This document shows positions 9,615 to 63,898 of a stretch of 64,000 bases of DNA, one piece after another. A program made the translations under genes and the position numbers. The stretch comes from Rhodoferax sp. (GTDB lineage: Bacteria > Pseudomonadota > Gammaproteobacteria > Burkholderiales > Burkholderiaceae_C): positions 32,613 to 96,612 of the forward strand of contig NZ_JAGPBB010000004.1 of NCBI RefSeq assembly GCF_018063565.1. Reading direction: 5' to 3'. The first letter of the stretch is position 1. Each line of letters starts with the position of its first letter. The notes below the pieces were generated by a model, which saw only the letters and a list, made by a program, of their open reading frames with translations, did no database searches and was not told where the DNA came from.

Positions 9615-9660
9615 TAATTGTGCTTTAGCGCATATCCATAAACACTTTTATGCTATAAAA
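9615..9660 (+). repeat. degraded copy of the 46-nt palindromic element (copy A)
   Basis: Lies between acpS and nagZ, ending 14 bases before the nagZ ATG. The middle (TATCCATAA) is identical to the ileS copy, and the flanks TTTAGCGCA and GCTAT match the family, but about one indel is needed to align it. It forms almost the entire acpS-nagZ spacer, so the nagZ leader is made of repeat sequence. Confidence 0.5.
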
Positions 9661-9674
9661 ATTAGTTAATCATC

Positions 9675-10757
9675 ATGCCGATTCACGCTCCTTTGATCAT
9701 TGATATCGCCGGACTGACACTGACCAAGGTTGATCGCCAGCGCCTCAAACACCCCCTGGTCGGCGGCATGATCCTGTTCGCCCGCAATTGGCACAGCCGG
9801 GAGCAACTGTCAGAGCTGTGCCACAGCATCAAAAAAGTGCGATCTGACTTGCTGATTTGTGTGGACCACGAGGGCGGGCGGGTGCAGCGCTTTAAAGCAG
9901 ACGGGTTTACCCATGTGCCACCGATGCGTGCCTTGGGTGAGTTGTGGCGAGACGACGGCAAGGATGCGGTGGGCTCCGGGGCGATGCGCGCCACCGCCGC
10001 AGCCAGCGCGTGTGGCTATGTGCTGGGCGCGGAACTGCGCGCCTGTGGTGTCGATCTGAGTTTTGCCCCGGTGCTTGACCTGGACTGGGCCAACAGCGGG
10101 GTGATTGGTGACCGCGCCTTTGACGCGGACGCCCGCGTGGTCAGCCTGCTGGCCAAGAGCCTGATGCACGGCCTGTTGCAGGCGGGGATGGCCAATTGTG
10201 GCAAACACTTTCCGGGACACGGATACGTGCGGGCCGACTCACACACCGATATTCCAGTGGACCCACGTGGCCTCCAAGCGATCCTGAAAGATGACGCTGC
10301 GCCCTACCGCTGGCTGAGTGGCAGCCTGAACAGCGTGATGCCCGCGCATGTGGTCTACCCCAAGGTGGACGGCAAACCGGCGGGTTTTTCAGCACGCTGG
10401 CTGCAAGATGTACTGCGTGGCCAATTGGGCTTTGCCGGTGCAGTCTTTAGTGACGACCTTTCCATGGCCGGTGCGCGGGTGATTGACGGGCAACCGGTCA
10501 GCACTACCGAGGCGGCCGTGGTGGCGCTGAATGCTGGGTGTGATCTGGTGCTGTTGTGCAACCAGTCTGTCGGGCTAGGCGAGGAGTTGGATGGGCTGAT
10601 CAATGGTCTGACCGAAGCGCAGCTCAAGGGGCGGTGGTTGCCCGATGAACGCAGCGAAGAGCGTCGTCTGACCCTGCTGCCAGGCACCCGAGCCACGGCC
10701 TGGGATGACCTGATGGTGCAACCCGCCTACATGCAGGCGCTGGACTTGCTTCCCTGA
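9675..10757 (+). CDS. nagZ: beta-N-acetylhexosaminidase NagZ
   Basis: Cytoplasmic glycoside hydrolase family 3 enzyme that removes GlcNAc from anhydro-muropeptides in cell-wall recycling. Signatures are VDHEGGRVQRF near residue 63, KHFPGHG at 177-183 followed by the catalytic D-S-H loop (about 188-190), and the nucleophile Asp in VFSDDLSM (about 260). Length is 360 residues. No clear Shine-Dalgarno sequence is seen before the ATG; the upstream bases belong to copy A of the 46-nt element. The gene ends the lepA-nagZ run and converges on the chemoreceptor gene 10 bases away. Confidence 0.95.
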   Translation: MPIHAPLIIDIAGLTLTKVDRQRLKHPLVGGMILFARNWHSREQLSELCHSIKKVRSDLLICVDHEGGRVQRFKADGFTHVPPMRALGELWRDDGKDAVGSGAMRATAAASACGYVLGAELRACGVDLSFAPVLDLDWANSGVIGDRAFDADARVVSLLAKSLMHGLLQAGMANCGKHFPGHGYVRADSHTDIPVDPRGLQAILKDDAAPYRWLSGSLNSVMPAHVVYPKVDGKPAGFSARWLQDVLRGQLGFAGAVFSDDLSMAGARVIDGQPVSTTEAAVVALNAGCDLVLLCNQSVGLGEELDGLINGLTEAQLKGRWLPDERSEERRLTLLPGTRATAWDDLMVQPAYMQALDLLP

Positions 10758-10766
10758 GCTTGGAAG

Positions 10767-12362
10767 TTACCGACCTGCCGTCACCTGCGCCCCAGACGAG
10801 AGCCGCAGCGTGCGTGTACCGGCCGTGTCAAGTTTAAAGACATTGACGATCTGCGCCAGGCGTTCTGCCTGGGTCTTGAGGTTCTCGGCCGATGCAGCAC
10901 TTTGTTCCACCAGTGCAGCGTTCTGTTGTGTCATTTGATCCAACGCTTGAATCGAGCTGTTGATCTCGGCAATTTCATGGTTTTGCTCGGCTGACGCTGC
11001 GGTGATCTGCGCGATGACTTGCGTTACCCGTTGTACGCTGTCGACGATGTCGTGCATGGAAGCGCCGGCCCGGTCTGCCAGCTCGGAGCCGGCCGACACC
11101 TTGTTGACACTGGACTCAATCAGCGCCTTGATCTCGCGGGCGGCCTGAGCACTGCGCTGGGCCAACTGGCGTACTTCCGTGGCCACTACGGCAAAACCAC
11201 GACCTTGTTCACCGGCTCTTGCCGCCTCGACAGCTGCGTTGAGCGCCAGAATATTGGTCTGGAAGGCAATACCATCAATGACGGCAATGATGTCGCTGAT
11301 CTTGCTGGAGCTGCGGTGAATGTCCTGCATGGTGCTGACCACCTCGGCGACCACCTCGCCTCCACGTTGGGCCAGTCCGGAGGCGTCATTGGCCATGGTG
11401 TTGGCGCTCAATGCTGCCTCACCACTGTGGCGTACGACCTCGGTCAGGTTGCTGACACTTTGTGCTGTTTTGACCAGGTTGCTGGCCGCCTCTTCGGTGC
11501 GCATCGACAGGTCCATGGTGCCGCTGGCGATTTCAGCGCTGGCCATGCGCACACTTGCCGCAGTTTCATGCACGTCAGTCATCGAACTGGACAACTCCTG
11601 TGCCATGCGGGTCATGGCGTTCATCAATTGTCCAAGCTCGTCGCCGGTGTCCTTGAGGTGCTGATTGGTCAGATCACTGGCTGCGATCCGCTGCGCCGCG
11701 ACCACCGCGGCGCGCAGTGGCGGAATCACGGTACGGTAGGTCAGCAGCCCAATCACGGCACCCACCACCACTGCCAGGCCGCCCAGGCTCCAGAGCGTGA
11801 TCAAGGCATTTCGGTACGTCGCCGAGGCGAATGCTGCCGAGCGGGCGGAGTCCGCCTCGATGGCAGTCACCAGCTTGTCCAACGTCGCCAGCAGCAACAA
11901 CTGGGCCGGCCTGAACTGGCTGCGTATGGCTTCACTGGCGGCCGGAATGTCCTGGTTCAGTGATTGTTCAATCACCGCGTCTAACCCGGTCTTGAGCGCC
12001 GCCTCTTGCGACTGGAGATTTTCGAGCGCCAGTCGCGTCACCGAGTCGTCAAACCGGTTCTGCAGCTCTTCACGCAATTGCGCATACTGCTTGGCAACGT
12101 CTTTCATGCGTTTGAGTTCAGACTTCTTGAACGACATGTCGTCTTGCAGAACCACGTCGCGAATCGCCAGGGACTGGTCACGAACCAGATCACGCAGCCC
12201 GATGGCAAGGTGCAACTTGCGCGCATCGGTTTGGACGATTTGTTTCAGATTTCTGTCCACCACCCCCATCCGATTGGCAGAAACCGCTGTCAGCGCAAGC
12301 AATAGGAGCAGTAACACACTGAACCCGGCCAACAAACGGGGGCCAATCTTGAGCTTGAGCAT
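10767..12362 (-). CDS. methyl-accepting chemotaxis protein (4-helix-bundle type)
   Basis: Chemoreceptor of 531 residues. Membrane segment 1 is at about 8-30, a mainly helical periplasmic domain of about 150 residues follows, and membrane segment 2 is at about 187-210. A HAMP domain leads to the signalling domain with the tip [18 protein letters not shown] and [18 protein letters not shown]. There is no C-terminal CheR-docking pentapeptide. The ligand is unknown. It lies 46 bases downstream of a gene for a small periplasmic sensor-like protein on the same strand, and the two are probably co-transcribed. Confidence 0.93.
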
Positions 12363-12408
12363 ACGGATTCTCCCGTGACTGAAGGAGGGGGTGACGGGGG
12401 CTGCAACC

Positions 12409-12978
12409 CTACTCGGCCGTCACACTGCCGTGCAGGATGCCAATGGCCTTGCCACCGTCCAGAATGGGTGCTGATATCTGCACGCTCTTGATCTGGGTTG
12501 TGGGATCAGGCTTGATTTCATTGTCCATCCAGGCCTGGCCTTTGAGTGCTTGTACGGCGGCGGGGCGACTGCCGTTATTGAACAGCAGCGTTTTGCTGCT
12601 GCCGGCGATGACATTGGCTTTCTGGTCACGCAAAAACAGTTTATTGAGGTTTTTGTCGGCTTCCCACTTCTGGATTTGCTGTCCGGCGGGGCTGTTCAGG
12701 GTGGACAATACCACCGGATCCTTGTCGTCCAGATCATTCCATTTGGCATTGGTCATGCCTGGCAGAAAACCACCCTTGGCGTTGGCCTCGCGTGTGGCGG
12801 AGAGCATCAGTGGATGAGCGGCCCATTCCACCAGTTGCTTCTGGTACTTGCTGACTTTGGCCTGCAAGTCGGCAGTTAACTCAGCGGTATGGACAAGGCC
12901 TACCGATAGAGCTAGGCCCAGACCGAGCGCGGTCTTGCGAATGAGTGACGAGAGACGGGTTTCGGTGCTGATAAACAT
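12409..12978 (-). CDS. exported PDC/Cache-like sensor-domain protein
   Basis: Periplasmic protein of 189 residues with a signal peptide ([15 protein letters not shown]) and no other membrane segment. The body looks like a single PDC-type sensor domain: an N-terminal long helix ([16 protein letters not shown]), then strands around [15 protein letters not shown], and a terminal [16 protein letters not shown]-type strand pair. It has no signalling module of its own. The start at 12978 is chosen because GGAG lies 7 bases upstream; an in-frame ATG 18 bases earlier is less likely. Being the first gene of a pair with a chemoreceptor suggests it binds ligand for that receptor, which is inference. Confidence 0.7.
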
Positions 12979-13136
12979 ATGAGGTCTCCGTGGCATGGCT
13001 GAGGTTGACGTGCAAGCAGCCAGCGACGGGCCAGAATCCAGGCAACGCTGGTTGCACAGACCATTCTAGGCAGACCGCCGGATTTGGTATTGATCCTGGT
13101 CATGTTTCGGATCGGTGCCTGGCGAAATGGTTTTGC

Positions 13137-13364
13137 TCAGGGTGAGCGGTGCAGCCGGGGTGCCGACAAGGCGGCCATCATGTCGTCCAGCGCCACGTCA
13201 ATGTTCGGTTCGGAGACCAGCATCCGGGCGCCGATCAGCAGTTTTCGCAACTCTTGCAAGTCTTTGACGGTAGGTGCCACCTTGATCTGGGCCAGGGCAG
13301 CGCTGCGGTTGCCTGCCTTGATCAGGGCCAGCACCTTGGGTGCCCATACGCTTGGTCGTGCCAT
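13137..13364 (-). CDS. small hypothetical protein
   Basis: A 75-residue basic protein, MARPSVWAPKVLALIKAG at the N-terminus and a helical LQELRKLLIGARM stretch, with no signal peptide or membrane segment. The start at 13364 is supported by AGGAG 8 bases upstream; a longer reading frame begins at 13451 but would overlap the start of the divergent yciH-like gene. I recall similar short proteins in Comamonadaceae but no function. It is divergent from the yciH-like gene with a 67-base spacer. Confidence 0.6.
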   Translation of the reverse strand: MARPSVWAPKVLALIKAGNRSAALAQIKVAPTVKDLQELRKLLIGARMLVSEPNIDVALDDMMAALSAPRLHRSP

Positions 13365-13431
13365 CCGGTTTGCTCCTGGTTGTGGCGCTGAAGGGTAACA
13401 CCCTGCGCCTGAAACGTGGACAATTCCGCTC

Positions 13432-13797
13432 ATGAAAAGTAAATTCTCCACGGGTGGTCTGGTCTACAGCACTGAGAGCGGCCGCACCTGCCCGGGTTGC
13501 AGCCAGGCGCTGGCCCAGTGTCGATGCCAGATGGCCAGCCCACGCGCCAAGGGTGATGGGGTGGTGCGTGTCTCGCGTGAAACCAAAGGCCGCGCCGGCA
13601 AAGGCGTGACCCTGGTCAAAGGGCTCGATCTGGATGATGCGGCCTTGCAGACTTTGGGCAAACAGCTGCGCGTGGCCTGTGGCTGCGGCGGGACCGTCAA
13701 AGACGGCGTGATCGAAGTGCAGGGCGAGCAGTGTGAGCGCATCATCGAACTGATGAAGGCCAAAGGGTTCAACGTCAAACGCGCGGGTGGCGGATGA
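13432..13797 (+). CDS. yciH: SUI1/YciH family translation factor
   Basis: Bacterial homologue of eukaryotic initiation factor eIF1, 121 residues. The N-terminus has a Cys-rich knuckle (CPGCSQALAQCRC). The SUI1 core has VTLVKGLDLD, LGKQLRVACGCGGTVKDG and IEVQGEQCERIIELMKAKGF. YciH is thought to affect start-site fidelity or to inhibit translation under stress. The stop overlaps the start of the DUF3820 gene by 4 bases (ATGA), so the two are coupled. Confidence 0.9.
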   Translation: MKSKFSTGGLVYSTESGRTCPGCSQALAQCRCQMASPRAKGDGVVRVSRETKGRAGKGVTLVKGLDLDDAALQTLGKQLRVACGCGGTVKDGVIEVQGEQCERIIELMKAKGFNVKRAGGG

Positions 13798-14006
13798 ACC
13801 CGGATGACCTGCAACTGTTGGTGACCCGAGTCATGCCTTTTGGCAAATACAAAGGGCGGCTGATCGCGGACCTGCCAGGGTATTACCTGACCTGGTTTGT
13901 CCGCGCCGGTGTTCCCAAAGGGGAAATTGGCCGACTCGTGGCGCTGATGCACGAGATCGACCACAACGGCTTGTCGGATCTGCTCACACCGCTGCGAAGT
14001 GCCTGA
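13794..14006 (+). CDS. DUF3820 family protein
   Basis: A 70-residue protein whose core MPFGKYKGRLIADLPGYYLTW is the DUF3820 hallmark; similar motifs occur in the putative quorum-sensing-regulated or exonuclease-associated domains that bind nucleic acid. The function is not known. It overlaps the yciH-like gene by 4 bases and therefore shares its transcript. No terminator is visible before the quinone oxidoreductase gene 86 bases downstream. Confidence 0.82.
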   Translation: MNPDDLQLLVTRVMPFGKYKGRLIADLPGYYLTWFVRAGVPKGEIGRLVALMHEIDHNGLSDLLTPLRSA

Positions 14007-14092
14007 ATCGGGTTAAGCACGAAGCCGTCATGTGCACCGGGTTTTCGTGGCAACATCAGCGCCTCTTACTGTCAACTGCAAGGAATCAAGTC

Positions 14093-15088
14093 ATGACTCA
14101 GCAAGCATCGCGCGCCATCGTTATCAGCCAGCACGGTGGGCCAGAGCAACTTCAAGTGATGAATGTCATGGTGGGCCAGCCTGGCCCGGGCCAAGTGCGC
14201 ATACGTCACCATGCGGTGGGCCTGAATTTCATCGACATCTACCAGCGCAGTGGCCTGTATCCGATGCCGATGCCACTGCAGCTAGGCATGGAGGCGGCCG
14301 GCGTGGTTGAGGCCGTGGGTGAGGGGGTCAGTCACCTGCAGGTGGGCGACCGTGCCGCCTATGCCAGCCAGCCTCCCGGCAGTTATTGCGAATTGCGGGT
14401 CATGCCCGCTCAATGTGTTTGCAAATTGCCAGACGCCATCAGTTTTGAGACGGGTGCGGCGATGATGCTCAAAGGTCTGACCGCCCAGTACCTGCTCAAA
14501 CGCACACTGCCACAAGGCGGCCTGCAAACCGGTGACTTTGTACTGTTTCATGCAGCCGCGGGCGGTGTCGGCCTGATTGCCTGCCAGTGGGCTGCGGCGA
14601 TGGGCCTGCAATTGATTGGTACGGCCGGGTCGGACGCCAAATGCGCGCTGGCCAAGGCCAACGGTGCTGCCTATGTCATCAATTACGCCACCGAAGACTT
14701 TGCCGCCCGAGTCAAGGACATCACCGCTGGCAGAGGTGTCAAAGTGGTGTACGACTCGGTGGGTAAAGACACCTGGGACAAATCACTGGATTGCCTGCAA
14801 CCCTTTGGTTTGATGGCGAGCTTTGGCAATGCCTCAGGGCCGGTACCGCCGTTTGCTCCGGGGATGTTGGGCGCCAAGGGATCACTCTATGTGACGCGTC
14901 AGACGCTGTTTACCCATATCGCCAACCGCGAAAGCACACAGGCGATGGCTGATGATCTGTTTGCGGTGGTGACCAGCGGCCAGGTCAAGATTCATATTGA
15001 TCAACGTTATGCGCTGGCCGATGTGCAGCAAGCGCACCGCGATCTGGAGGCCCGCAAAACCACGGGTTGCACCGTGCTGACGCTATAG
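14093..15088 (+). CDS. qor: NADPH:quinone oxidoreductase (zeta-crystallin-like)
   Basis: Medium-chain dehydrogenase/reductase without zinc, 331 residues. The N-terminal GroES-like domain has VGLNFIDIYQRSGLYP and LGMEAAGVVEAVGEGV. The Rossmann domain has the nucleotide-binding AAAGGVGLIACQWA motif. The family reduces quinones by one electron using NADPH. The ATG at 14093 is the family start; an ORF start at 14030 would only add unrelated residues. RBS AAGGAATCAAGTC precedes it. Confidence 0.93.
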   Translation: MTQQASRAIVISQHGGPEQLQVMNVMVGQPGPGQVRIRHHAVGLNFIDIYQRSGLYPMPMPLQLGMEAAGVVEAVGEGVSHLQVGDRAAYASQPPGSYCELRVMPAQCVCKLPDAISFETGAAMMLKGLTAQYLLKRTLPQGGLQTGDFVLFHAAAGGVGLIACQWAAAMGLQLIGTAGSDAKCALAKANGAAYVINYATEDFAARVKDITAGRGVKVVYDSVGKDTWDKSLDCLQPFGLMASFGNASGPVPPFAPGMLGAKGSLYVTRQTLFTHIANRESTQAMADDLFAVVTSGQVKIHIDQRYALADVQQAHRDLEARKTTGCTVLTL

Positions 15089-15089
15089 C

Positions 15090-15335
15090 TTGGCTGAACC
15101 CATATTCCGCGTCCGTCCACCGACTCGCCGTCAATCTGGTCGTTGCCAGGCAAGATGCGCTTGAAGCGAACGCCTGCCTTTTGCAACACCCGCACCGACG
15201 CCGCGTTTCCCACGATCGCGGTGGCCACCAACGGGTGCACACTCTGTTCCATCATTTGCCGGGTGGCGGTGGCCAGCACCCCTCGGTGGCACAACCTTGC
15301 TCCCAAAACGAGTTGAAAAAGTACTATTCAGAATT
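15090..15335 (-). pseudogene. remnant of a GNAT acetyltransferase
   Basis: Reading the minus strand, one frame has FWEQGCATEG, the acetyl-CoA loop of GNAT enzymes. The frame then has to shift by one base in a run of four G (near 15286) to continue as VLATATRQMMEQS...VGNAASVRVLQKAG, the second GNAT motif, up to NDQIDGESVDG. A stop codon also lies directly upstream of FW, and the N-terminal half is missing. It is therefore a decayed C-terminal fragment, possibly of a rimJ-like acetyltransferase. Confidence 0.65.
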
Positions 15336-15549
15336 GCTTGCCTCAACGGAATCGCTGATCTCCGCGTCGAGTTCATCCAGGTAAAGGCTATCCGATTGGC
15401 GCCGAACGGCCCGGGTGGGCCAGACCCATGCCAGGTCGGGTGACCAGCGGCATTCAAGATTCAAAGTAACCGTTACACCAACGAGCGCTAGGCCTGCCCG
15501 CCAGGCTGGCGTGTAAGGTGCCTTCACCCATCACAAGGGTGAGAGCGGG
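15336..15549. other. gene-poor spacer with two hairpins
   Basis: Together with the pseudogene this makes a 461-base stretch between qor and the DUF2845 gene without an intact gene. I see no recognisable protein in any frame. Two inverted repeats lie close to the end of the DUF2845 gene: GCCTG-CCCGC-CAGGC near 15499-15513, extendable with a bulge, and TCACCC/GGGTGA near 15526-15543. Neither has a strong T-run, but together they may end DUF2845 transcription. Confidence 0.4.
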
Positions 15550-16237: not shown

Positions 16238-16813
16238 TCAAGCCGCATCTGCCCCCGTCGTTCCCCACAAGCGCGTGCCCGAAACCTCCAGGTGTGTCAA
16301 ATACAGCCGAACCTCAAACTCAAGCTGGTGGTAACGTGGCTCCATGTAGTTGCACAGCTGGTAGAATGCCTTGTCGTGCTGGCGTTCTTTCAAATGGGCC
16401 AACTCGTGTACGCAGATCATCTTCAAAAAGTCTTCAGGCACCTGCTTGAACAGGCTGGCCACACGGATTTCACGCTTGGCCTTGAGCTTGTTGCCTTGCA
16501 CCCGCGCGATGGTGGTGTGGGTACCCAAGGCGTGCTGCATCACCTGTAGCTTGGCATCAAACGCGACTTTGTTCAAGGTTTCAGCGCCGCGCAGGTGTTC
16601 GGACTTGAGCGCCTGCACGTAGTCAAACAGCGCACGGTCGGTGCGCACGGCGTGCCCTTGCGGGTACTTTTTCAGCAGCCAGTCGGCCACGCGGTCTTCG
16701 GCCAGCAGCTTTTCCACCTGAGCCAGCGTGCCTGACGGGTAGCCCAGCAGGTAGCGCAGGGCACTGCCAGTGGGTGCAATCGCTGTGCTCTTAATAGCTA
16801 ACAACCCATTCAA
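16238..16813 (-). CDS. YgjP/DUF45-type metal-dependent hydrolase
   Basis: Zincin-like protein of 191 residues. The metal site is VHELAHLKERQHDKAFYQLC, the HExxH-type motif followed by a downstream His, typical of the YgjP/SprT-like DUF45 family. The first recognisable family segment is LRYLLGYPSG at about residue 19. The start codon is uncertain: the only upstream candidate is TTG at 16813, and the first 8 codons lie inside copy B of the 46-nt element. The frame is open up to the lysS stop codon 28 bases upstream. It probably shares the lysS transcript. Confidence 0.8.
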   Translation of the reverse strand: MNGLLAIKSTAIAPTGSALRYLLGYPSGTLAQVEKLLAEDRVADWLLKKYPQGHAVRTDRALFDYVQALKSEHLRGAETLNKVAFDAKLQVMQHALGTHTTIARVQGNKLKAKREIRVASLFKQVPEDFLKMICVHELAHLKERQHDKAFYQLCNYMEPRYHQLEFEVRLYLTHLEVSGTRLWGTTGADAA

Positions 16814-16836
16814 ATCAAGCGAGCAAGGCCATTTTT
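16791..16836 (+). repeat. 46-nt palindromic element, copy B
   Basis: Aligns without gaps to the other family members: TTAATAGCT at the left end and GGCCATTTTT at the right end. It lies between lysS and the ygjP-like gene, and on the opposite strand it encodes the TTG start and first residues (NGLLAI) of that protein. Confidence 0.7.
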
Positions 16837-16840
16837 GTGC

Positions 16841-18394: not shown

Positions 18395-18561
18395 GTGAGG
18401 TAATCAGGAAAAGGTCGACTAGTGCAGCATCCATGTTGATCGACAGAGCAAAAGCAAAATCGTCAACGGTCGCAAGGGCTGCCAGGGGCACGTGCAAAAC
18501 AGCGGATTTTAAGCGGCGGCAGTATCGCTATGATCCATCGCCATCAACACTTGTGTTCACC

Positions 18562-19128: not shown

Positions 19129-19394
19129 AGCCTTGCGGGACAGATCATGCCTTATACGCCGTGCAGCTTGCTCTGTCCCCAACTGATCAATGGCTGTTGG
19201 CGGTCTGCCTTGCGGGACCGACCAAGCCTTATACGCCGTGAAACTTGGCCTATTATCAGCAACCGCTTCCAGGCTAGACCTCGCCTAAGGCAAGCCTAAG
19301 CCTCGCCTAAGTTTGACTGCTTACAGTTGCTATCAGTTGGTTGATTGCCAACCACCTCTTCGTCTCAAGAATGTCAACTCTGAAAGGAACTCTC
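19129..19394. repeat. intergenic region with 41-base direct repeats
   Basis: Two copies of a 41-base sequence, at 19130-19170 and 19207-19247, match at 36 of 41 positions and share GCCTTGCGGGAC and CCTTATACGCCGTG. Further on CCTCGCCTAAG occurs at 19279-19289 and 19301-19311, with a third CCTAAG between them. No gene is visible. The region precedes the Lys/Ala-rich exported protein and may hold its regulatory sites. Confidence 0.7.
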
Positions 19395-23552: not shown

Positions 23553-24874
23553 TTGGAAACTCCTGAAGAAGTAGCTGGTTGCGCAATCTGCATATGGGCC
23601 GAAGGCCCAATGGATGGATTTCCTTTGACCGATTGGCCCTGGCAGCTCGGGCGGCAGAAGAAGTCTGCGCCTGACAAATCTGCCACCGTGCCAATGTCCT
23701 TGTCGCCGCGTCCTGACAGGTTGACCAGAATTGATTGGTCGGGGCGCATGGTTTTGGCCAGCTTCATGGCGTAGGCCAGCGCGTGGCTGGATTCCAGTGC
23801 GGGGATGATGCCCTCGGCGCGGCAGAGGTAGTGGAAGGCATCCAGCGCCTCCACGTCGGTGATGCCGACGTATTCGGCGCGGCCAATGTCGTTCAAAAAG
23901 GCGTGCTCGGGGCCGACACCGGGGTAATCCAGCCCGGCGCTGATGCTGTGCGTCTCGGTGACCTGGCCGTTGTCATCTTGCAGCACATAGGTTCGGTTGC
24001 CATGCAGCACGCCGGGGCTGCCGCGCTGGATGCTGGCGGAATGCTTGCCGCTATCCATGCCGGCACCAGCGGCTTCCACGCCAATCAAACGCGTGGCTTC
24101 ATGCTCAATATAGGGGTAAAAAATGCCCATGGCGTTGGAGCCACCGCCGACACACGCCACCACCGCATCGGGTTGGTCACCGGCGCACCCGGCAGCTTTG
24201 AGCATTTCGGGCATCTGCATTAGGCATTCCTTGCCGATGACGCTCTGAAAATCGCGCACCATCATCGGGTATGGGTGCGGTCCGGCCACGGTGCCGATGA
24301 TGTAGAAGGTGTTGTCCACATTGGCCACCCAGTCGCGCATGGCTTCATTCAATGCGTCTTTGAGCGTTTTGCTGCCCGATTCGACCGGCACCACGGTGGC
24401 CCCGAGCAGCTTCATGCGATAGACGTTGGGACTTTGGCGCTTGACATCTTCGCTGCCCATATAAACCACGCATTCCAGCCCATAGCGGGCGCAAATGGTG
24501 GCGGTGGCCACGCCGTGCTGGCCGGCACCCGTTTCGGCGATCACGCGCGGCTTGCCCATGCGCTTGGCCAGCATCGCCTGGCCAATCGTGTTGTTGATCT
24601 TGTGTGCACCAGTGTGGTTGAGGTCTTCGCGTTTGAGGAAGATTTGCGCGCCGCCCATCTCGCGGCTGATGCGCGCGGCGTGATAGACGGGTGACGGGCG
24701 ACCGACAAAATGTGCCAACTGGGACTCGAATTCTGCAATGAAGGCCGGGTCATATTGGTACTTGGCGTAAGCCGCCTTGAGCTCATTGACCGCGTGCGTC
24801 AGCGTCTCGGAGATAAAACTGCCGCCGTAAATGCCAAAGTGGCCACGTGCATCGGGTTGTTGGTAGTCAAGCAT
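23549..24874 (-). CDS. trpB: tryptophan synthase beta subunit
   Basis: PLP enzyme that joins indole and serine. The PLP lysine is Lys92 in [13 protein letters not shown]; the phosphate loop is [10 protein letters not shown]; the C-terminal NLSGRGDKD motif is present. Length is 441 residues because about 40 residues follow [10 protein letters not shown]. The last 20 or so (from [10 protein letters not shown] on) look non-conserved and include a hairpin (GGGCC/GGCCC near 23594-23608). The stop overlaps trpA by 4 bases. Confidence 0.96.
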
Positions 24875-24886: not shown

Positions 24887-24932
24887 TTGATAGCTTAAAG
24901 CGCTTTTTTAATAAGGGCTGGAAGCCTATTTG
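24887..24932 (+). repeat. 46-nt palindromic element, copy D
   Basis: Reads TTGATAGCT at the left and AAGCCTATTTG at the right, among the best copies. It fills most of the trpF-trpB spacer. On the minus strand it contains the trpF stop codon (TAG at 24926-24928). Confidence 0.8.
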
Positions 24933-52132: not shown

Positions 52133-52178
52133 AAATGAGCTTTTAGCCCATATTCAGCATATATTGATAGCTATATTT
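52133..52178 (+). repeat. 46-nt palindromic element, copy E
   Basis: Starts AAATGAGCT and ends GATAGCTATATTT, aligning without gaps. It occupies most of the spacer between the CobD/CbiB-like gene and hisC and ends 15 bases before the hisC ATG. Confidence 0.7.
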
Positions 52179-53264: not shown

Positions 53265-53268
53265 CCGG

Positions 53269-53286: not shown

Positions 53287-54230
53287 TAGCGCCGTTCTTG
53301 CGACAGTTCGGCGTACAAATCACTGTATATTTTGTAGCGGTTTGCGCTTATTCCACCTGCGCTGATGCCTGAGTTGACCATTGAAATCACGCCGCAACCG
53401 GGCTCGTGCAGATGGCTGCAGTTGTAGAACTTGCACTGCGCCACATGCGGTTTGAGGTCGGGCATGTAGGCCGCGAGTTGCGCCGGGTCGATGTGGTTGA
53501 GGCCAAACTCCTGAAAGCCCGGTGAGTCGAGCAGAGCCGTCGTTTTGGCTTCATCCACCCAGTACAGCGTGGTGCTGGTCGTGGTGTGTTTGCCCGCGTT
53601 GAGCGCTTGTGACAGAGCGCCGGTCTGCACCAAGGCGCCAGGAATCAAGGTGTTGATCAGGGTGCTTTTGCCAGCACCGGAGGGGCCCAGCACCAGCGTG
53701 GTGTGGCCGCTCAGGCGCTGCAGCAGGGCGGCGCGGTCGGTCAAGGTGTGTTGTTTGAGCGCCAGCGGCAGCACGTCATAACCCATGTCACGGTAGGGTG
53801 TCAGCCACGCCCAGGCGCGCGTAAAGGGTTCGGCCAGGTCGCTCTTGTTGAGCGCAATAATGGGTGTGATGTGCTGCTCTTCAGCGGCAATCAGGGCGCG
53901 AGAGAGCTGGCTGCTTGAAAATTCGGGCTCGGCGGCAATCAAAATCAGCACCCGGTCGAGGTTGGCGGCAAACGACTTGGTGCGTATCTCGTCCTGGCGG
54001 TAAAACAGGTTGCGCCGGGGTTCGATTCGCTCGATCGTGCCCTCGTCTTGCGAGGCCTGCCACAGTACCCTGTCGCCCACGACCCCCTGGCTTTTCTTGC
54101 CACGCGAGTGGCAGATGCGTCGCTCGCCAGACGCGGCTTCGACCAGAAAATGCCGGCCGTAGTTGGCCACAATCAGGCCGGTTTGTAGCGGGTTCTGGCT
54201 TTCGTCAGAGGCCTTGGAGCGTGCCTTCAT
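53283..54230 (-). CDS. rsgA: ribosome small subunit GTPase RsgA
   Basis: Circularly permuted GTPase for late 30S maturation, 315 residues. The order is OB-fold, then G4 (NKSD), G1 (GPSGAGKSTLIN), G3 (DSPGFQEFG), and the zinc site CKFYNCSHLHEPGCGV near the C-terminus. The ATG at 54230 is chosen; a TTG at 54248 would add six residues. phhB lies 45 bases upstream on the same strand. Confidence 0.95.
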   Translation of the reverse strand: MKARSKASDESQNPLQTGLIVANYGRHFLVEAASGERRICHSRGKKSQGVVGDRVLWQASQDEGTIERIEPRRNLFYRQDEIRTKSFAANLDRVLILIAAEPEFSSSQLSRALIAAEEQHITPIIALNKSDLAEPFTRAWAWLTPYRDMGYDVLPLALKQHTLTDRAALLQRLSGHTTLVLGPSGAGKSTLINTLIPGALVQTGALSQALNAGKHTTTSTTLYWVDEAKTTALLDSPGFQEFGLNHIDPAQLAAYMPDLKPHVAQCKFYNCSHLHEPGCGVISMVNSGISAGGISANRYKIYSDLYAELSQERRY

Positions 54231-54275: not shown

Positions 54276-54590
54276 TCAGGCGATCTGCAACGCATCGGTT
54301 TGTGCGGCGCAGTCAAAGTCGGCCCGGCTGAGGCCGGCGACATCGTGGGTTTGCCAGCGCACCGTGCATTGGCGATAGCGCACGGTCAGTTCAGGGTGGT
54401 GATTGCGTCGGTGCGCCACAAACGCCAGCGCGTTCACAAACGCCAGGGTCTGGTAGTAGTCGGCAAAGTCAAAGGTTTTCTCAATGGCCACGTCCGCCCC
54501 GTCGCCAGACAGTCGCCAGCCTTCCAGTTTGGCCAGACTTGTGATGATTTCAGTAGCTGTCAGCGCACGTTGCTTATGGGCTAGAGGCAT
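54276..54590 (-). CDS. phhB: pterin-4a-carbinolamine dehydratase
   Basis: Recycles the pterin cofactor of aromatic amino-acid hydroxylases (DCoH family), 104 residues. Active-site stretches are FADYYQTLAFVNALAFVAHRRNHHPELTVRY with the His-His pair, and WQTHDVAGLSRADFDCA. The start codon and about the first 13 codons (MPLAHKQRALTAT) are encoded by copy F of the 46-nt element. No phenylalanine hydroxylase gene is seen here. Confidence 0.92.
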   Translation of the reverse strand: MPLAHKQRALTATEIITSLAKLEGWRLSGDGADVAIEKTFDFADYYQTLAFVNALAFVAHRRNHHPELTVRYRQCTVRWQTHDVAGLSRADFDCAAQTDALQIA

Positions 54591-54595: not shown

Positions 54596-54604
54596 CAATG
54601 AATG

Positions 54605-55909: not shown

Positions 55910-55947
55910 GGCGGCGAAGTTTAGGCGATCAGCGACAATTTGCACCC

Positions 55948-56796: not shown

Positions 56797-58677
56797 ATGA
56801 CTGACGCTACCCTAGCGACAGGCGACTTTTCGTCTGTCGAAATTATCTCCAATGACCTGATCGACGATGGATCTGCAGCCGTCGCTGCGGCTCCGGTCGA
56901 AGAAGCCCTCAATGGCTTTGTTGCGCTGGACCTGGCCCCGGAACTGATCCGTGCGGTCAAAGACCTGGGCTTTACCCAGCCCACCATCGTCCAGCAAAAA
57001 ACCATCCCGCTGGCCTTGCAGGGCCACAATGACGGCGCCAAGGAGGCGCGCTTTATTGACCTGATGGTTTCCAGCCAGACCGGCAGCGGTAAGACCGCCG
57101 CATTCCTGTTGCCGGTGCTGCACACCCTGCTCACGCAGCAAGCGCAAGCCGAAGCCAAAGAGCGCGACGACTACCAGCGCGCCGTGGCCGAGGCCACCGC
57201 CAAAGGCGAGGCCCCCCCGAAACGCGCCAAGCGCAAAGACCCGACCAACCCGCGCCATTTCACCGCCCCTGCACCCGGCGCGTTGGTGGTTTGCCCGACG
57301 CGCGAACTCGCGCAGCAGGTGGCGCACGACGCCATCGACCTAGTGCAGCACTGCCGCGGCCTGCGCATTGCCAATATTGTGGGCGGCATGCCGTATCAGT
57401 TGCAGATTGCCAAGCTGCAAAACGCCAATCTGGTGGTGGCCACCCCGGGGCGTCTGCTGGACTTGCAGCGCTCGATGCAGATCAAGCTCGACCAGGTGCA
57501 GTTCCTGGTGGTCGATGAGGCTGACCGCATGCTCGATCTGGGCTTTGCCGACGATCTGGCCGAAATCAACCAGCTCACCATCGCGCGCAAGCAGACCATG
57601 ATGTTCAGCGCAACCTTTGCGCCACGCATCCAGCAGCTGGCCGCCCGAGTCATGCGCGAGCCGCAACGCATCACCATCGACAACCCGCAGGAAAAACACG
57701 CCAACATCAAGCAGGTGATGTTCTGGGCCGACAACGCGCAGCACAAACGCAAGCTGCTGGATCACTGGCTGCGCGACACCGGCATTAACCAGGCGATTGT
57801 GTTTGCCAGTACGCAAATTGAATGTGATGGCCTCGCCAATGACTTGCAGCAAGACGGCTTTGACGCCGTGGCCCTGCATGGCGCCCTGAGCCAGGGTCTG
57901 CGTAACCGCCGTCTGATGGCGCTGCGCCAGGGCCAAGTGCAGATTCTGGTGGCCACCGACGTGGCCGCACGCGGTCTGGATGTGCCCACCATCACACACG
58001 TGTTCAACTTTGGTCTGCCGATGAAGGCCGAGGACTACACCCACCGCATTGGCCGCACCGGCCGTGCCGGGCGGGACGGTCTGGCCGTCACCTTTGCCGA
58101 ATTTCGCGACCGTCGCAAGATTTTTGACATCGAAGCCTACACGCGCCAACCCATCAAAGCCGAAGTGGTGCCGGGGCTGGAGCCGCAGCAGCGCATGCCT
58201 GAGGCACCGCGCGGCGGCTTTGGTGGCCGGGGCGGTTTTGGTGACCGTGACCGCAAGTTTGGTGGCGGCGGCCGCCCGAGCGGTGGTTTTGGTGGTGGCA
58301 ATCGCGGTGGCTTCGGCGACCGGGGTGGCTTCAACGACAACCGTGGTGGTTTTGCAGACCGAAATGCCTCTGGCCCACGTCTAGTGGGCGCTGATAGCTA
58401 TCAAGATAATAAACCGGGTGGGTTTCACCCGCGTGACGAGCGCCCCGCAGCTCCGGCGCGTGATGCCTTCAGCTACGAGCGCAAAGGTGGTTTCAACGAC
58501 CGCTTTGCCGGCGACCGCAACGACCGTGGCCCGGGCGCTGGTGCTGGTGCACCGCGGGGTGATTTCGCGGCGCGCAAGCCAGCCTTTGGCAAACCAGCAT
58601 TTTCCAAACCTGCCGGTGGTGGCAAAGTGTTTGTGCCGCGCGATGCGCAAAAGCGCTTTTCCAAGAATGATCGTTGA
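56797..58677 (+). CDS. DEAD-box RNA helicase with Gly/Arg-rich tail
   Basis: ATP-dependent RNA helicase of 626 residues, RhlE-like. Q-motif region FTQPTIVQQKTIP, Walker A SQTGSGKT at 93-100, DEAD at 240-243, SAT in MFSATFAP and motif VI HRIGRTGRAG. A charged insert of about 44 residues (114-157) lies between motifs I and Ia. The C-terminal 170 residues are rich in GGFGGRGG/RGGFGDR repeats and probably bind RNA. Residues 522-536 are encoded by copy G of the 46-nt element. It starts after a structured leader. Confidence 0.93.
   Translation: MTDATLATGDFSSVEIISNDLIDDGSAAVAAAPVEEALNGFVALDLAPELIRAVKDLGFTQPTIVQQKTIPLALQGHNDGAKEARFIDLMVSSQTGSGKTAAFLLPVLHTLLTQQAQAEAKERDDYQRAVAEATAKGEAPPKRAKRKDPTNPRHFTAPAPGALVVCPTRELAQQVAHDAIDLVQHCRGLRIANIVGGMPYQLQIAKLQNANLVVATPGRLLDLQRSMQIKLDQVQFLVVDEADRMLDLGFADDLAEINQLTIARKQTMMFSATFAPRIQQLAARVMREPQRITIDNPQEKHANIKQVMFWADNAQHKRKLLDHWLRDTGINQAIVFASTQIECDGLANDLQQDGFDAVALHGALSQGLRNRRLMALRQGQVQILVATDVAARGLDVPTITHVFNFGLPMKAEDYTHRIGRTGRAGRDGLAVTFAEFRDRRKIFDIEAYTRQPIKAEVVPGLEPQQRMPEAPRGGFGGRGGFGDRDRKFGGGGRPSGGFGGGNRGGFGDRGGFNDNRGGFADRNASGPRLVGADSYQDNKPGGFHPRDERPAAPARDAFSYERKGGFNDRFAGDRNDRGPGAGAGAPRGDFAARKPAFGKPAFSKPAGGGKVFVPRDAQKRFSKNDR
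58359..58404 (-). repeat. 46-nt palindromic element, copy G, inside the helicase gene
   Basis: The minus strand reads TTGATAGCT at one end and GGCATTTCGG at the other, aligned without gaps with copy F. Read on the plus strand it encodes R-N-A-S-G-P-R-L-V-G-A-D-S-Y-Q within the Gly/Arg-rich tail, a clear break in that repeat pattern. Confidence 0.65.
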
Positions 58678-58708
58678 TCCTGTTCAGTGATCCAGGAGTT
58701 TTGAGCCT

Positions 58709-58745
58709 CCAGCCCATGATCAAGTTGGGTTGGGGGTTCTTTTAC
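58709..58745 (+). terminator. possible terminator after the helicase gene
   Basis: CCAGCCC/GGGTTGG (58709-58715, 58727-58733, one G-T pair) is followed by GGGTTCTTTTACTT. It lies between the convergent helicase and Na/Pi symporter genes. Confidence 0.45.
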
Positions 58746-58751
58746 TTGTAG

Positions 58752-60458
58752 CTACTTGGCGGTGTTCGATGTCTTGTTGTTGACCAGGGCTGCATCCGTT
58801 GGGGTGATTTGCGCGGGTTGCGTCTGGCGCAAGCGGCTGGGTTCCAGCGCACCGGCGGTCTCCAGGATCGGGTAGGCAATCGACGCAATGTGCGAGTTGA
58901 TGCGTTTGAGCTCGCTGATCATGTCCAGGTGCAAGGAACTGGTCTCGATGCTCTGCAGCGTGTTGTCAGACAGGCGGGTAATGTGGTTGGCGGCGTAGGC
59001 CAGCTCCATGTCACGAAAACGGGTTTTCTGCTCCAGCAAGGTTCTGGCGTCCTGCAGATTGCCGTTCAGGAACACACTCATGCCCAATCGCAGATTGCCC
59101 ACCAGATGCTGATGCAGCTCAGTGATCTCGGCCATGCCGGCGTCAGAGAATGCCCGACCGGCCTTGATTTTCTTTTTCTCGACATCGCCCAGCACGCGTT
59201 CGATGATGTCGCCGATCTGCTCCATATTGATAGTGAAGCTGATGATTTCGGCCCAGCGTGCGCCTTCTTTCTCGCTGAGCGACTCACGTGAAATCTTGGT
59301 CAGGTAGTACTTGATGTCTGAATACAGCCGGTCCACCGTGTCGTCGAGCTTTTGCAACGACTGGGCCAGCGCCATGTCGTCGTTGCGGGTGACATCGAGC
59401 AGGCCGCGCAGCATGGTCTCCACCACATCGGCCTGGTGCATCGCCTCGCGCACGGCGCAAGACAAGGCCACCGAAGGCGTCGCCAGCGCCGAGGGGTCCA
59501 GATGCCGGTGTCGCCCGTTGAGGTGGTTGTTGACCGGTTTGGGCAGCCAGTAACTCACCCAGCCGGCCACCACCCCGGTCAGGCCAATGAACACCAGCGA
59601 GACCATCACATTGAAGGCCAGGTGAAACAGCACCACCAGCGTGGCTTCGTCGGGCAGCACGGGCTGAAGCGTCTGCAGCCACAGCGGTGTCAACGGAGCA
59701 GCAATGGCTATACCCAGCACTTTGAACACCAGATTGCCCATCGGCACCTGCCTTGCCTCGATCGGTGAGCGCAGGGTGGTCAGCACCGCCAGCAAGCCAC
59801 TGCCCAGGTTGGCCCCCAACACCAGACCCAGCGCCACATCCGCCGTGACTACATGGGTACTGACCAGGGTGGCGGTGAGCAGCACGATGGCCAGACTGGA
59901 GTAACTCACCACCGCCAGCACGGCGCCCACAGTGATTTCCAGCAGGCGCTCGCTGCCCAGTGACCCCAGCAGTGCCCGGACCGCAGGTGCGCGCGTCAGT
60001 TCGTTGGCGGATACCGTGACCAGATGCAAGGCCAATAGCATCAAGCCCAACCCGATCAGAATACGCCCGGTGTAACCCACGTTGGTGGATTGACGGGCAA
60101 TGAACAGCACCACGCCGACAAAAATGAACAGCGGCGACAGCCACGACAGATCGCGCGAAAAAACCACTGCCATCACGCTGGTGCCCATGTCGGCACCCAG
60201 CATCACCGCCAACGCGGACGGCAAGGCCATCAGACCCTGGCCAACAAATGCCGAGACGATCAGCGCGGTGGCGGTGCCCGACTGCAGCAGTGCGGTGACA
60301 CCGATGCCTGAAACCACGGCATTGAAGCGGTTGCTGACACTTTGTGCCAGCACTTTGCGCAAATTGGCGCCCAGCACCCGCAACGTGTCTTTTCGCACCA
60401 GGTGGGTGCCCCAGACCAGCAAGGCAATGGCAGCCAGCAGGTTCAGCAGGTGGGTCAC
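58752..60458 (-). CDS. Na+/phosphate symporter with PhoU-like tail (NptA/YjbB family)
   Basis: Membrane protein of 568 residues. Two inverted Na/Pi-cotransporter repeats carry the QS-type motifs ALLQSGTATALIVSAFVGQG and VVSYSSLAIVLLTATL, with GADMGTSVMAV and GANLGSGLLAVL. The C-terminal 200 residues form a PhoU-like helical domain (LDDTVDRLYSDIKYYLT, EQIGDIIERV). It can move phosphate with sodium, possibly outward. It starts 24 bases after lspA and may be part of the ribF-ileS-lspA transcript. Confidence 0.88.
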   Translation of the reverse strand: MTHLLNLLAAIALLVWGTHLVRKDTLRVLGANLRKVLAQSVSNRFNAVVSGIGVTALLQSGTATALIVSAFVGQGLMALPSALAVMLGADMGTSVMAVVFSRDLSWLSPLFIFVGVVLFIARQSTNVGYTGRILIGLGLMLLALHLVTVSANELTRAPAVRALLGSLGSERLLEITVGAVLAVVSYSSLAIVLLTATLVSTHVVTADVALGLVLGANLGSGLLAVLTTLRSPIEARQVPMGNLVFKVLGIAIAAPLTPLWLQTLQPVLPDEATLVVLFHLAFNVMVSLVFIGLTGVVAGWVSYWLPKPVNNHLNGRHRHLDPSALATPSVALSCAVREAMHQADVVETMLRGLLDVTRNDDMALAQSLQKLDDTVDRLYSDIKYYLTKISRESLSEKEGARWAEIISFTINMEQIGDIIERVLGDVEKKKIKAGRAFSDAGMAEITELHQHLVGNLRLGMSVFLNGNLQDARTLLEQKTRFRDMELAYAANHITRLSDNTLQSIETSSLHLDMISELKRINSHIASIAYPILETAGALEPSRLRQTQPAQITPTDAALVNNKTSNTAK

Positions 60459-60482
60459 TGGGGGCCTTCTCGGTTTTCTGAA

Positions 60483-61007
60483 TCAGCGTCCGCGCCGGAC
60501 CCGCAGCAACTCATCCAGAATGAGGCAGGTCGCACCCAGGGTAATGGCGCTGTCGGCCACGTTGAACGCCGGGAAATGCCAGCTGCCCCAGTAAAAGTCC
60601 AGAAAATCAATCACATACCCGTGCAGCACCCGATCCACCACATTGCCAATGGCACCGCCAAGGATGCTGGCCAGCGCAAAGGCAAACAGCTTCTGTCCGG
60701 CGTAGGAGCGCAGCAACCAGACGATCACGATCGCCGCCACTACCCCGATGACGGTGAAGAACCAGCGTTGCCAGCCCGCAGCACCGGCCAGAAACGAAAA
60801 CGCCGCACCGCTGTTGTGCACCCGCACCACGTTGAAGAAGCTGGTGACCGGTGTCTGGTCGCCCAACTGGTAGTAGCCCAGGATCAGAACCTTGGTGAAC
60901 TGGTCGGCGATCAGCACCACGGCAGCCCACGCCAGCCAGATCCACAAGCTGCTGCCCGACGCCATGGGCCGCGCAGCGCCGCCGGCACCAGCCTTGCGTG
61001 TCGCCAT
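60483..61007 (-). CDS. lspA: lipoprotein signal peptidase (signal peptidase II)
   Basis: Aspartic protease of the inner membrane that removes lipoprotein signal peptides, 174 residues. Four membrane helices; catalytic Asp in [16 protein letters not shown] and FNVADSAIT. The start overlaps the ileS stop by one base (TGATG). The order ileS-lspA is standard. Confidence 0.96.
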
Positions 61008-63898
61008 CAGGCAAACACCCGCGTTTCACCCGCACCAAACAGATTACTGGTGCAGCGACCACAAATTGTTGGGTGGGCGGGGTCCGTGCCAACGTCATCA
61101 CGGTAATGCCAGCAGCGCTCACATTTCACGTCATTTGAGGCTCTAGCGCTTATGGATAGGTCGCTACCAGCTATCAACTCAATAGTCGATGTAATGAACA
61201 CAAACTTCAGATCCTCACCCAGACCTGACAGCAAGGCGTGATCATCCGGCCCCATCGTCAGGCGGATGTTGGCCTGAAGTGACGAGCCCAACTGGCCCGC
61301 GGCACGCAGCACCTCGATGTCCTTGTTGACGGCATCGCGAATCTCGCGGATGCGCACCCATTTGGCCAGCAGGGCAACGTCGGGGCTGGCCAGCGTGCTG
61401 TAGTAATCCATAAATATGGACGGACGACTGCCGGCAGGGGTTTTGCCTTGCGCACCCAGCACAGCCCAGGCTTCTTCAGCGGTAAAGCTCAAAAACGGTG
61501 CCATCCAGCGCAGCATCGCCTGGGTGATCTGCCACAGCGCGGTTTGGGCGCTGCGCCGCGCCAGCGAGTTGGCGGCGGTGGTGTAGAGCCGGTCTTTGAG
61601 GATGTCGAGGTAGAACGATCCCAGGTCCTCACTGCAGTAAATCTGTAGTTTGGCCACCACCGGGTGAAATTCATACACCTCAAAATGCGCCAGCACCTCG
61701 GCTTGCAGTTGGGCGGCGCGGCTGAGCGCGTAGCGGTCAATCTCCAGAAGTTGGTCCGCTGCCACGGCATCCACCGCCGGATCAAAGTCGTGGGTGTTGG
61801 CCAGAAGGAACTTGAGCGTGTTGCGGATGCGGCGGTAAATGTCGACCACCCGCGCCAGAATCTTGTCGTCGCCGGCAATGTCGCCTGAGTAGTCGCTTGC
61901 CGCCACCCACAGGCGGATGATCTCGGCACCGAGTTTCTTGCTGGTTTCCTGTGGGTCAACGCCGTTGCCGGCGCTTTTGCTCATCTTGTGGCCTTTGCTG
62001 TCCACGGTAAAGCCGTGTGTCAGGATGCCGAGGTACGGCGCTCGGTCGTACATGGCACAGGCGGTCAGCAGGCTGGAGTGGAACCAGCCGCGGTGCTGGT
62101 CGTGCCCTTCCAGGTACAGGTCGGTCTCGGGTCCGTCGGCATGGCCTGCGCCGGGGTGCGAACCTTTGAGCACCGTGGTGTGGGTGGTGCCGGAGTCAAA
62201 CCACACCTCCAGAATGTCGCTGCTCTTGGTGTAGTGCGGGGCGTCAAGCTGGCAGTCGATGGTGGCCAGAATGGCCTCGGGGGTGGCCTTGCTCCAGGCT
62301 TCAATGCCGCCGTGCTCCACCATGTCGGCTGCAATGTCCAGAATCTCCATGGTGCGCGGATGCAACTCGCCGCTGTCCTTGTGGACAAAAAACGGCAGCG
62401 GCACACCCCAACTGCGCTGACGGCTGATGCACCAGTCGGGCCGCCCGGCGATCATGTCGCGCAGGCGCACCTTGCCGTTTTCGGGGTAAAACGCTGTATT
62501 TTCAATAGCTGCCAGCGCAGTCTGTCTGAGCGTCAGTGGCGCTTTTTCTTTGGTAAATACCCCAGCGCCATCGTCCATGCGGATAAACCATTGAGCTGCG
62601 GCGCGGTAGATCACCGGCGTCTTGTGGCGCCAGCAGTGCGGGTAGCTGTGCACGATGTTCTCGGTGGCAAACAGGCGGCCAGCCTCGCGCAGCGCGTCGA
62701 TGATGACCGGGCAGGCTTTCCAGATGTTTTGCCCGCCAAACAGCGGCAACTCGGGCGCATAGACACCGTTACCCTGCACCGGGTTGAGGATGTCGTCATA
62801 GGCCATCCCATGCGACACACAGCTGTGAAAGTCGTCCACGCCATAGGCCGGTGCGCTGTGCACAATGCCGGTGCCGTCTTCGGCAGTGGCATAGTCGGCC
62901 AGATAGACGGGGCTGAGGCGGTCATAGCCGGCATCCACATGGGCCAACGGGTGTTTGAAATGGATGCCACCCAGGTTCTTGCCCAGCGTGGTGGCCACCA
63001 CGGTGCCGGTCAGGCCAAAGCGTGCCATGCACTTTTCGACCAAGGTCTCGGCCAGCACCAGCAGTCCCCGCTCGGTATCGACCAGCGCGTAAGACAACTC
63101 TGGGTTCAGGTTCAGCGCCTGGTTGGCCGGAATGGTCCAGGCGGTGGTGGTCCAGATCACCACAAAAGCATCCATCGCCAGTTCACTCAAGCCAAAGGCA
63201 GTGGCAAGTTTGTCTTGTTCGGCACACAAAAAGCCCACGTCCAGCGTTTGTGATTTTTTGTCGGCGTATTCGATCTCGAACTCTGCCAAGGACGAGCCGC
63301 AGTCAAAACACCAATACACCGGTTTCAAGCCACGGTAGACAAAGCCGCGTTCAATCACCCGCTTGAAGGCGCGAATCTCGTCGGCTTCGTTCTTGAAATC
63401 CATGGTGCGGTAGGGGTGGTCCCAATCGCCCAGCACACCCAGCCGTTTGAAGTCGGCCATTTGCAGCGCGATCTGCTCGGTGGCGTAGGCCCGGCTTTTG
63501 GCCTGCATGTCGTCACGCGCCAGTTTGCGGCCAAACTTCTTCTCAATGGCGTTTTCGATCGGCAAGCCATGGCAGTCCCAGCCGGGGATGTAGGCAGCGT
63601 CCAGACCTTTGAGTTGGCGCGCCTTGACGATCATGTCCTTGAGAATTTTGTTGACCGCATGGCCCATGTGGATCTGGCCATTGGCGTAGGGCGGGCCATC
63701 GTGCAGAATGAACTTGGGCTGACCTTTGCGGGCGGCGCGCAGCTTTTGGTACAGGCCCTGGTCTTCCCAGTCCTTGACCCATTGCGGCTCGCGCTTGGGC
63801 AGGTCGCCACGCATCGGAAACGGAGTGTCGGGCAGGTTCAGCGTACTGCGGTAATCGGTTTTGCCGGATGGCTGCGTTTGGGGGTCTTGTGTGGTCAT
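61007..63898 (-). CDS. ileS: isoleucyl-tRNA synthetase
   Basis: Class I synthetase of 963 residues. The HIGH motif reads HMGH (77-80), KMSKS is in [14 protein letters not shown], the editing domain (CP1) lies between, and the C-terminal zinc knuckle has [12 protein letters not shown] and ICGRCTSNL. Residues 908-923, just before the zinc site, are encoded by copy H of the 46-nt element. ATG 63898 is the family start. The frame remains open upstream to the window end because of an apparent frameshift in ribF. Confidence 0.97.
61132..61177 (-). repeat. 46-nt palindromic element, copy H, inside ileS
   Basis: On the minus strand it begins TTGATAGCT and has AAGCGCTAGAGCC, aligning without gaps with copies C and D. 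It is read in the ileS frame as [15 protein letters not shown], with no stop. Confidence 0.75.

Follow-up and report, generated by a model that had tools for sequence, protein, structure and literature searches.

How does one and the same palindromic sequence come to lie both between genes and, read in frame, inside genes such as trpA and ileS? The question is raised by a 64,000-nt stretch of a Rhodoferax sp. genome (positions 32,613 to 96,612 of contig NZ_JAGPBB010000004.1; hereafter the window), in which an earlier note had described a dispersed palindromic element with part of its copies in genes, a description that our analysis bears out. Here we report that these copies probably belong to a family of ∼63 bp Comamonadaceae palindromes resembling repetitive extragenic palindromic (REP) sequences, related to the 3′ end of a single-copy REP-associated tyrosine transposase (RAYT) gene and arriving by replacement of host sequence or by insertion plus deletion. 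Judged from sequence comparisons, this would be a REP-like repeat with an unusual, replacing mode inside genes. The repeat, from bacteria common in water and soil, is thereby described as a family, its core having been found in print just as a motif.

The element was modelled solely on copies outside the window: 25 copies from the source genome, aligned without gaps over 69 columns, gave both a sequence-only profile (R1) and a weight matrix, the near-duplicates L014, L025 and L030 and the window copies L011 and L028 having been left out. The conserved unit, with boundaries read by eye, is ∼63 bp long rather than the 46 nt previously claimed, and forms a relaxed imperfect palindrome with the relaxed consensus, likewise by eye, TGCTAT..AA.TT.ATAGCTGCT.GCGCTT......AAGCGCTAGAGGCC.ATTTT....AA. 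Over the 69-nt stretch the GC content of the 25 copies is 30-51%, and in 27 source-genome copies, retrieved with an ATAG pattern allowing up to three mismatches, the tag begins with A 24 times and with G three times. Of 116 occurrences of the central three 9-mers, 113 fall within elements, and the mean score per copy is 31-42 bits where 13-14 bits would mark that many sites, some source-genome copies having also trained the matrix.

Copies are frequent far beyond the window. R1 gave at least 150 matches in the 4.13 Mb source genome (worst listed E 2.1e-4), a figure in which two places are counted on both strands and some contigs may be strain duplicates. Weight-matrix matches per 400 kb number 44 in this genome, 84 in a member of the same genus (G121) and 58 in one of another genus (G120), as against 0 to 1 in simulated sequence, which is the clear excess over random expectation that the earlier note's claim implied. 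At E ≤ 1e-4, R1 matches occur in 51 of 150 family genomes, the source included, 41 of them with five or more. In an order-wide draw three of 200 genomes had matches, namely the source, one more family member and one genome of another family with a single weak match; the draw also held family members without matches. Among the records listed, a strict pattern was found in Acidovorax, Paenacidovorax, Simplicispira, Giesbergeria, Extensimonas, Rhodoferax and Comamonas, and in metagenome-assembled genomes named just Burkholderiaceae or Gammaproteobacteria; a single 76-base query had no match in plasmids, and the strict pattern had 0 matches in viral contigs. Two side observations concern the source assembly. 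It contains a second ileS (G000:C181:90-3041, L266) whose product is 93% identical to the window protein, with both element sites in both genes, so the assembly may be a mixture of two strains. Two further copies (L024 and L025, on G000:C68) are separated by 8.8 kb and have left flanks that are almost the same, and their surroundings have therefore probably been duplicated.

With genes called by our own simple caller, which may include false open reading frames (ORFs), three 400 kb samples show an enrichment over random of 3.6 to 8.6 fold at co-directional, convergent and stop-overlapping places (3.6-8.2 fold for the co-directional and convergent classes alone) and of 1.5 to 2.2 fold in divergent spacers, while gene interiors hold 0.2-0.4 of the random number. 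At 10 bits or more, 16 of 43 matches in the source genome, 32 of 83 in G121, 16 of 56 in G120 and seven of 12 in the window lie in called genes. In loci fetched by the strict pattern, 18 of 189 matches do so. In-gene copies are numerous in either coding direction; 61 of the 71 in the three samples and the window are read in the three frames left open by the consensus, and two encoded peptides recur, IAxxAxxxSAxxQ and xPLALxxxAQxAI. The proposal that the element avoids stops in several frames was rejected, since 73 intergenic copies have fewer open frames of six than shuffled copies (2.03 vs 2.30). Four-fold-site identity among carriers is barely higher inside than outside the element (0.67 vs 0.63, 0.71 vs 0.63 and 0.71 vs 0.65), and strong selection at the DNA level is thus unsupported.

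The evidence on arrival inside genes comes from relatives that lack the element. In a DNA-level test each element of at least 30 bits was set against its closest relative without one, and the filter that both flanks match within 40 nt at 65% or more kept 49 of 313 elements. For copies well inside genes the net change was zero in 20 of 22 rows, drawn from five host sites (UbiA, IleS twice, RfbG and TrpF), the other two rows being TrpA with +30 nt. Near stop codons, in the TrpB tail, four of five copies gained 15-30 nt and one lost sequence; among four copies overlapping gene ends, two were +46, one within 3 and one a loss. A protein gap test, from which hits below 20 bits, homologues below 40% or above 97% identity and sites scoring at least 5 bits were left out, showed no gap to the closest non-carrier for 14 of 18 in-gene matches (12 of 15 distinct sites); the gapped cases are TrpA twice, h10 and h63, and the results for h14 and h10 rest on poor alignments.

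Single hosts illustrate the pattern. UbiA aligns without a gap to each of 20 non-carriers, some of them from other families, and its element scores 47-60 bits in nine close carriers and 40 and 23 bits in two more distant members of the genus. RfbG of G120 contains a near-consensus unit (62 bits) that is gapless against nine of 13 non-carriers and involves no net change at the site relative to PDB 1rkx and 1wvg, while for an outer-membrane efflux protein (62 bits) and a Nif3 protein the difference from PDB homologues at the element is no more than one residue. The TrpF element occupies the same site in two genera. Within the genus, carriers and non-carriers agree in length at both ileS sites and have homologous residues there, a state that by the earlier note's own criterion speaks against its view for these copies. 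The Rickettsia-like in-frame insertion it had in mind fits TrpA (+10 aa), ProA (18 aa), PurL (7 aa) and the longer TrpB tail; it fails at the two ileS sites and is not seen at UbiA, RfbG, TrpF and others.

In 14 pairs, chosen beforehand as gapless, identity inside the 58-nt unit is 0.34-0.71 and lies below that of both flanks in 12, as in RfbG (0.34 vs 0.68 and 0.64). The two exceptions are what we take to be a CitE-like protein (HemW, hisG and murA are likewise presumptive gene names) and the h35 homologue, whose partner itself scored 12 bits. Orthologous sites in non-carriers, chosen at below 5 bits and thereby somewhat lowered in score, resemble the element no better than random windows do (median -30 vs -28.8, P 0.48). 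The high information per copy, the lack of prior likeness at non-carrier sites and the rarity of the 9-mers on their own together argue for copying of the whole unit, and whole-unit copying in turn favours replacement, or insertion with a balancing deletion.

Between genes, DNA was mostly gained: the 18 intergenic copies in the DNA-level test include 10 with a net gain of 37-62 nt and three with 14-17 nt. Three of the 18 are RAYT 3′ ends (e15 -11, e16 +16, e114 -2), and the copy e113 gives +80 against a second relative. Most gains fall below the length of the unit, which fits partial replacement. The trpF-trpB spacer, measurable in 18 of the 22 loci from this genus, is 51-62 nt in six of seven carriers, the carrier L071 having a 36-nt spacer and a longer trpF tail, and 0-6 nt in 10 of 11 non-carriers, with 23 nt in one. 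The window's trpF copy amounts to +46 nt relative to L075, and the spacer lengths also support a gain there.

The link to a transposase rests on the RAYT gene. The source genome (93% complete) has one match to PF01797 (Y1 transposase), a RAYT that scores 82.5 with the NCBIfam model REP_Tyr_transpos (cut-off 80), and homologues at E ≤ 1e-50 occur once each in 113 of 150 family genomes. Of the 30 closest loci, 17 have a RAYT 3′ end scoring above 0 bits, compared with two of 579 control windows and none of 30 RAYT 5′ ends; all 17 element-like sequences have one orientation, that of the source genome scoring 23.6 bits, and R1 at E ≤ 1 gives 17 matches in these loci, most of them at the RAYT 3′ end. 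We read an element-like sequence in a single orientation at the 3′ end of so many RAYT genes as the mark of a REP-like family tied to RAYT. A RAYT at least 55% identical is present in 36 of 41 genomes with five or more matches and in 34 of 109 others. As side observations, conserved AATTGGGGTCAGATTCCAATTA-like repeats stand on both sides of the RAYT gene in most of loci L130-L159, a GATGTGTCCC-like motif follows the RAYT stop in nearly all of them and is absent in L152, and G015 has 18 PF01797 matches, apparently an IS200-like expansion, versus a single match in most relatives. A transposase start suggested by three copies beside a shared word was rejected, being a short ORF next to what is presumably a sugar-kinase-like gene.

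Several observations weigh against this interpretation. The RAYT 5′ flanks, too, lie above controls (median -24 vs -29, P 3e-6), and base composition may therefore account for some of the flank signal; the correlation of element number with RAYT closeness over 150 genomes (Spearman 0.51) is uncorrected for phylogeny; the element-rich genomes G040, G095 and G117 are without a close RAYT; and 15 genomes with a RAYT at least 65% identical have no R1 match. Most RAYT loci bear GGGGTCAGATTCCAATTA-like repeats in their outer flanks, consistent with the terminal GGGGWSAS repeats that TIRYT genes are reported to have and that are described as unrelated to REPs (Di Nocera 2013, PMC3733652); having terminal repeats of its own, the RAYT may not move the element. 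As to arrival, TrpA (283 residues in carriers vs 273-276 in most of the genus), ProA of G121 (18 residues absent from PDB 4ghk), PurL (7 residues more than 1t3t) and h63 grew in length, as did the TrpB tail counted from GRGDKD (53-54 residues in carriers vs 38-48 in genus members without that copy), and two relatives without a trpA match (L072, L084) have TrpA loops longer still. With all non-carriers counted, other families included, the ileS sites are gapless in just nine of 18 and nine of 20 comparisons, and the 18 intergenic copies include two without net change (within 3) and three with a loss. The prior choice of gapless pairs and of low-scoring sites has to be set on the same side. Finally, a clean junction between near-identical strains was not found for any copy, so that replacement and insertion followed by deletion are not told apart.

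The spreading of REPs is itself poorly understood (PMC8266576). In the reading that we favour, a REP-like family related to the RAYT 3′ end, copies would spread via single-stranded copies made by the RAYT, arrival would consist of short-patch replacement of a variable host stretch or of insertion plus deletion, and selection inside genes would retain the events neutral in frame and length. A more specific proposal, which we advance only tentatively and regard as somewhat doubtful, is that the repeat spreads by overwriting: short single-stranded copies, made by a domesticated RAYT or taken up as DNA, would be patched into the chromosome without homology in place of host sequence, often at equal length in genes, and 15-20 residues of conserved enzymes would thereby have given way to peptides encoded by the repeat. 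If replacement is true, protein segments can be reshaped by repeats with reading frame and length preserved, and tests for mobile repeats that rely on gaps miss such copies. As many copies lie in conserved genes, alignments of protein and DNA show what changed on arrival.

An ordinary mobile REP or miniature inverted-repeat transposable element (MITE) that only inserts, its in-gene copies being trimmed later to the old length by deletions, would account for the DNA gained at most testable intergenic copies, and ProA, TrpA and PurL do resemble partly trimmed insertions. Plain insertion leaves the in-gene copies of zero length change unexplained, however. The UbiA copy, gapless against 20 of 20 non-carriers, lies in a hydrophobic segment where an insertion of 20 residues would hardly be tolerated, and the RfbG unit is near consensus and yet gapless against nine of 13, all of which makes this account unlikely. 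We attach a lower probability still to a motif favoured in DNA uptake or binding and built up in place by point mutation, as are the uptake signal sequences (USS) of Pasteurellaceae. Such a motif would explain why so many in-gene copies come without an indel (14 of 18 closest non-carriers gapless), the absence of indels being the very test that showed USS not to be insertions (PMC1626085); one Comamonadaceae member is naturally transformable, possibly with a sequence preference (PMC4212676), and the TrpF element at one shared site in two genera also suits it. Against it, no short strong core was found alone, as the 9-mer counts and the 18 occurrences of AAGCGCTAG in G121, where 78 elements were aligned, indicate; the 31-42 bits per copy far exceed the 13-14 bits needed; non-carrier sites are without prior likeness; DNA was gained at 13 of 18 intergenic copies; and the near-consensus unit of RfbG stands where the relative has 34% identity.

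A structured RNA or terminator, with the hairpin selected at gene ends, would fit a palindrome that is overrepresented at stop codons and in the spacers of co-directional and convergent genes. The window has no Rfam match at gathering scores, RNAalifold of the 25 copies gave four pairs with zero double changes, covariation and pair counts in these copies were no better than in shuffles, just two of eight folded copies beat all 200 shuffles, and many copies lie within coding sequence in either direction; we therefore hold this explanation to be very improbable. The compensatory stem changes that the earlier note had proposed to look for thus show no excess over shuffles in the 25 copies. A separate observation, not counted in the covariation result, is that the stem of the ubiA copies (L267-L277) reads GCGC/GCGC in some carriers and GCCC/GGGC in L270, L272 and L273, which resembles a paired change among orthologous copies, and that it is mismatched in the carrier L269.

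The window itself has 12 weight-matrix matches at 8 bits or more (Table 1) versus none in two order-2 Markov simulations, and two matches to the strict core pattern versus none in 100 shuffles. Seven of the eight places named by the earlier note score well with the model built outside the window, and the one at 16791-16836 is weak (18.8 bits, cmsearch E 0.32). Its list was also incomplete, lacking the copies at 23571-23607, 53334-53370, 58704-58740 and 62505-62541, and its statement that none lies in neutral spacer does not hold for those starting at 9620, 52138 and 58704, which are intergenic. Among the host genes, trpA, trpB, trpF, ileS, nagZ, hisC and rsgA are over the NCBIfam cut-off, phhB (E 4e-35) and the DEAD-box helicase match only at scores below it, and the supposed ygjP-like ORF had no match at 1e-10. 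Elsewhere in the window, positions 19130-19247 contain a 41-nt direct repeat in two copies, 77 nt start to start and 88% alike.

Table 1. Copies of the element core in the 64-kb window, with strand and support.
Location of copy	Position	Strand	Support
Intergenic, upstream of nagZ	9620..9656	-	30.1 bits; cmsearch E 0.008
Degraded core over 5′ end of 191-aa ORF	16794..16830	+	18.8 bits; cmsearch E 0.32
Within trpA, read in frame; loop exceeding that of most of genus by ~10 aa	23162..23198	-	30.2 bits; orthologues
C-terminal coding end of trpB	23571..23607	+	31.8 bits; orthologues
Over trpF stop and trpF-trpB spacer; best copy of window	24890..24926	+	54.7 bits; cmsearch E 2.3e-12
Intergenic, before hisC	52138..52174	-	40.1 bits
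Weak core near rsgA 3′ end	53334..53370	+	18.7 bits; G121 same site 24 bits
5′ coding end of phhB	54553..54589	+	42.8 bits
Gly-rich tail of DEAD-box helicase	58365..58401	-	23.5 bits
Weak core between convergent genes	58704..58740	-	13.6 bits
ileS site 2, before Cys-rich C-terminal end; length unchanged within genus	61138..61174	-	46.0 bits; orthologues
ileS site 1, within conserved segment; length unchanged within genus	62505..62541	+	31.2 bits; orthologues

Rickettsia palindromic elements are larger inserts that add residues to their hosts. They share with the present element a palindromic repeat read in frame in unrelated genes (PMC10969869), whereas here the net length change is often zero. 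With DNA uptake sequences (DUS) and USS the element shares in-gene copies without indels (14 of 18 closest non-carriers gapless); membership fails on the short strong core that should also be found alone, the 9-mers lying in full units in 113 of 116 cases. The beta-proteobacterial repeat elements (BRE; Hot et al. 2011, PMC3110155) are likewise dispersed, reported from Comamonadaceae genomes and sometimes inside genes, those of Bordetella being 75-91 bp long, 63.7-78.9% GC and in some cases tandem. We rejected membership on the 30-51% GC over 69 nt of our 25 copies and on unit length, a comparison by description.

A search for literature on the element as a family found none in a coverage that leaves most subscription journals outside, and element words looked up in paper texts led, by title, to no paper about this repeat. 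The earlier note's remark that no named family is known holds in the literature covered, except that the core had already been listed, as the unnamed motif GCTTAT(N)5AAGCG of Acidovorax ebreus TPSY (Tong et al. 2017, PMC5217627), in a table that also has a second motif, from Polaromonas. The Acidovorax motif occurs 31 times in three unselected genome samples, each time inside the present element, and 172 of 172 occurrences in loci themselves fetched by an element pattern fall inside it as well. That motif is reported as mostly intergenic, with few occurrences in genes and a location near gene ends, and the same distribution is seen here; the report gives the inner portion of the palindrome alone, with no unit, family, transposase link or gene analysis.

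The closest parallel in kind is with the GTAG REPs and REPtrons (PMC3733652, PMC8266576); Acidovorax, Polaromonas, Rhodoferax, Delftia and names in Comamon- are absent from the main text of PMC3733652. Both are high-copy imperfect palindromes with a mismatch, located mostly between co-directional or convergent genes and in some cases in genes, and both have a RAYT with an adjoining copy, here at the RAYT 3′ end only. In the present family the tag is ATAG more than GTAG, the conserved unit is longer, the RAYT bears GGGGTCAG terminal repeats of the TIRYT type, and the in-gene copies tested seem mostly to replace host sequence rather than interrupt it.

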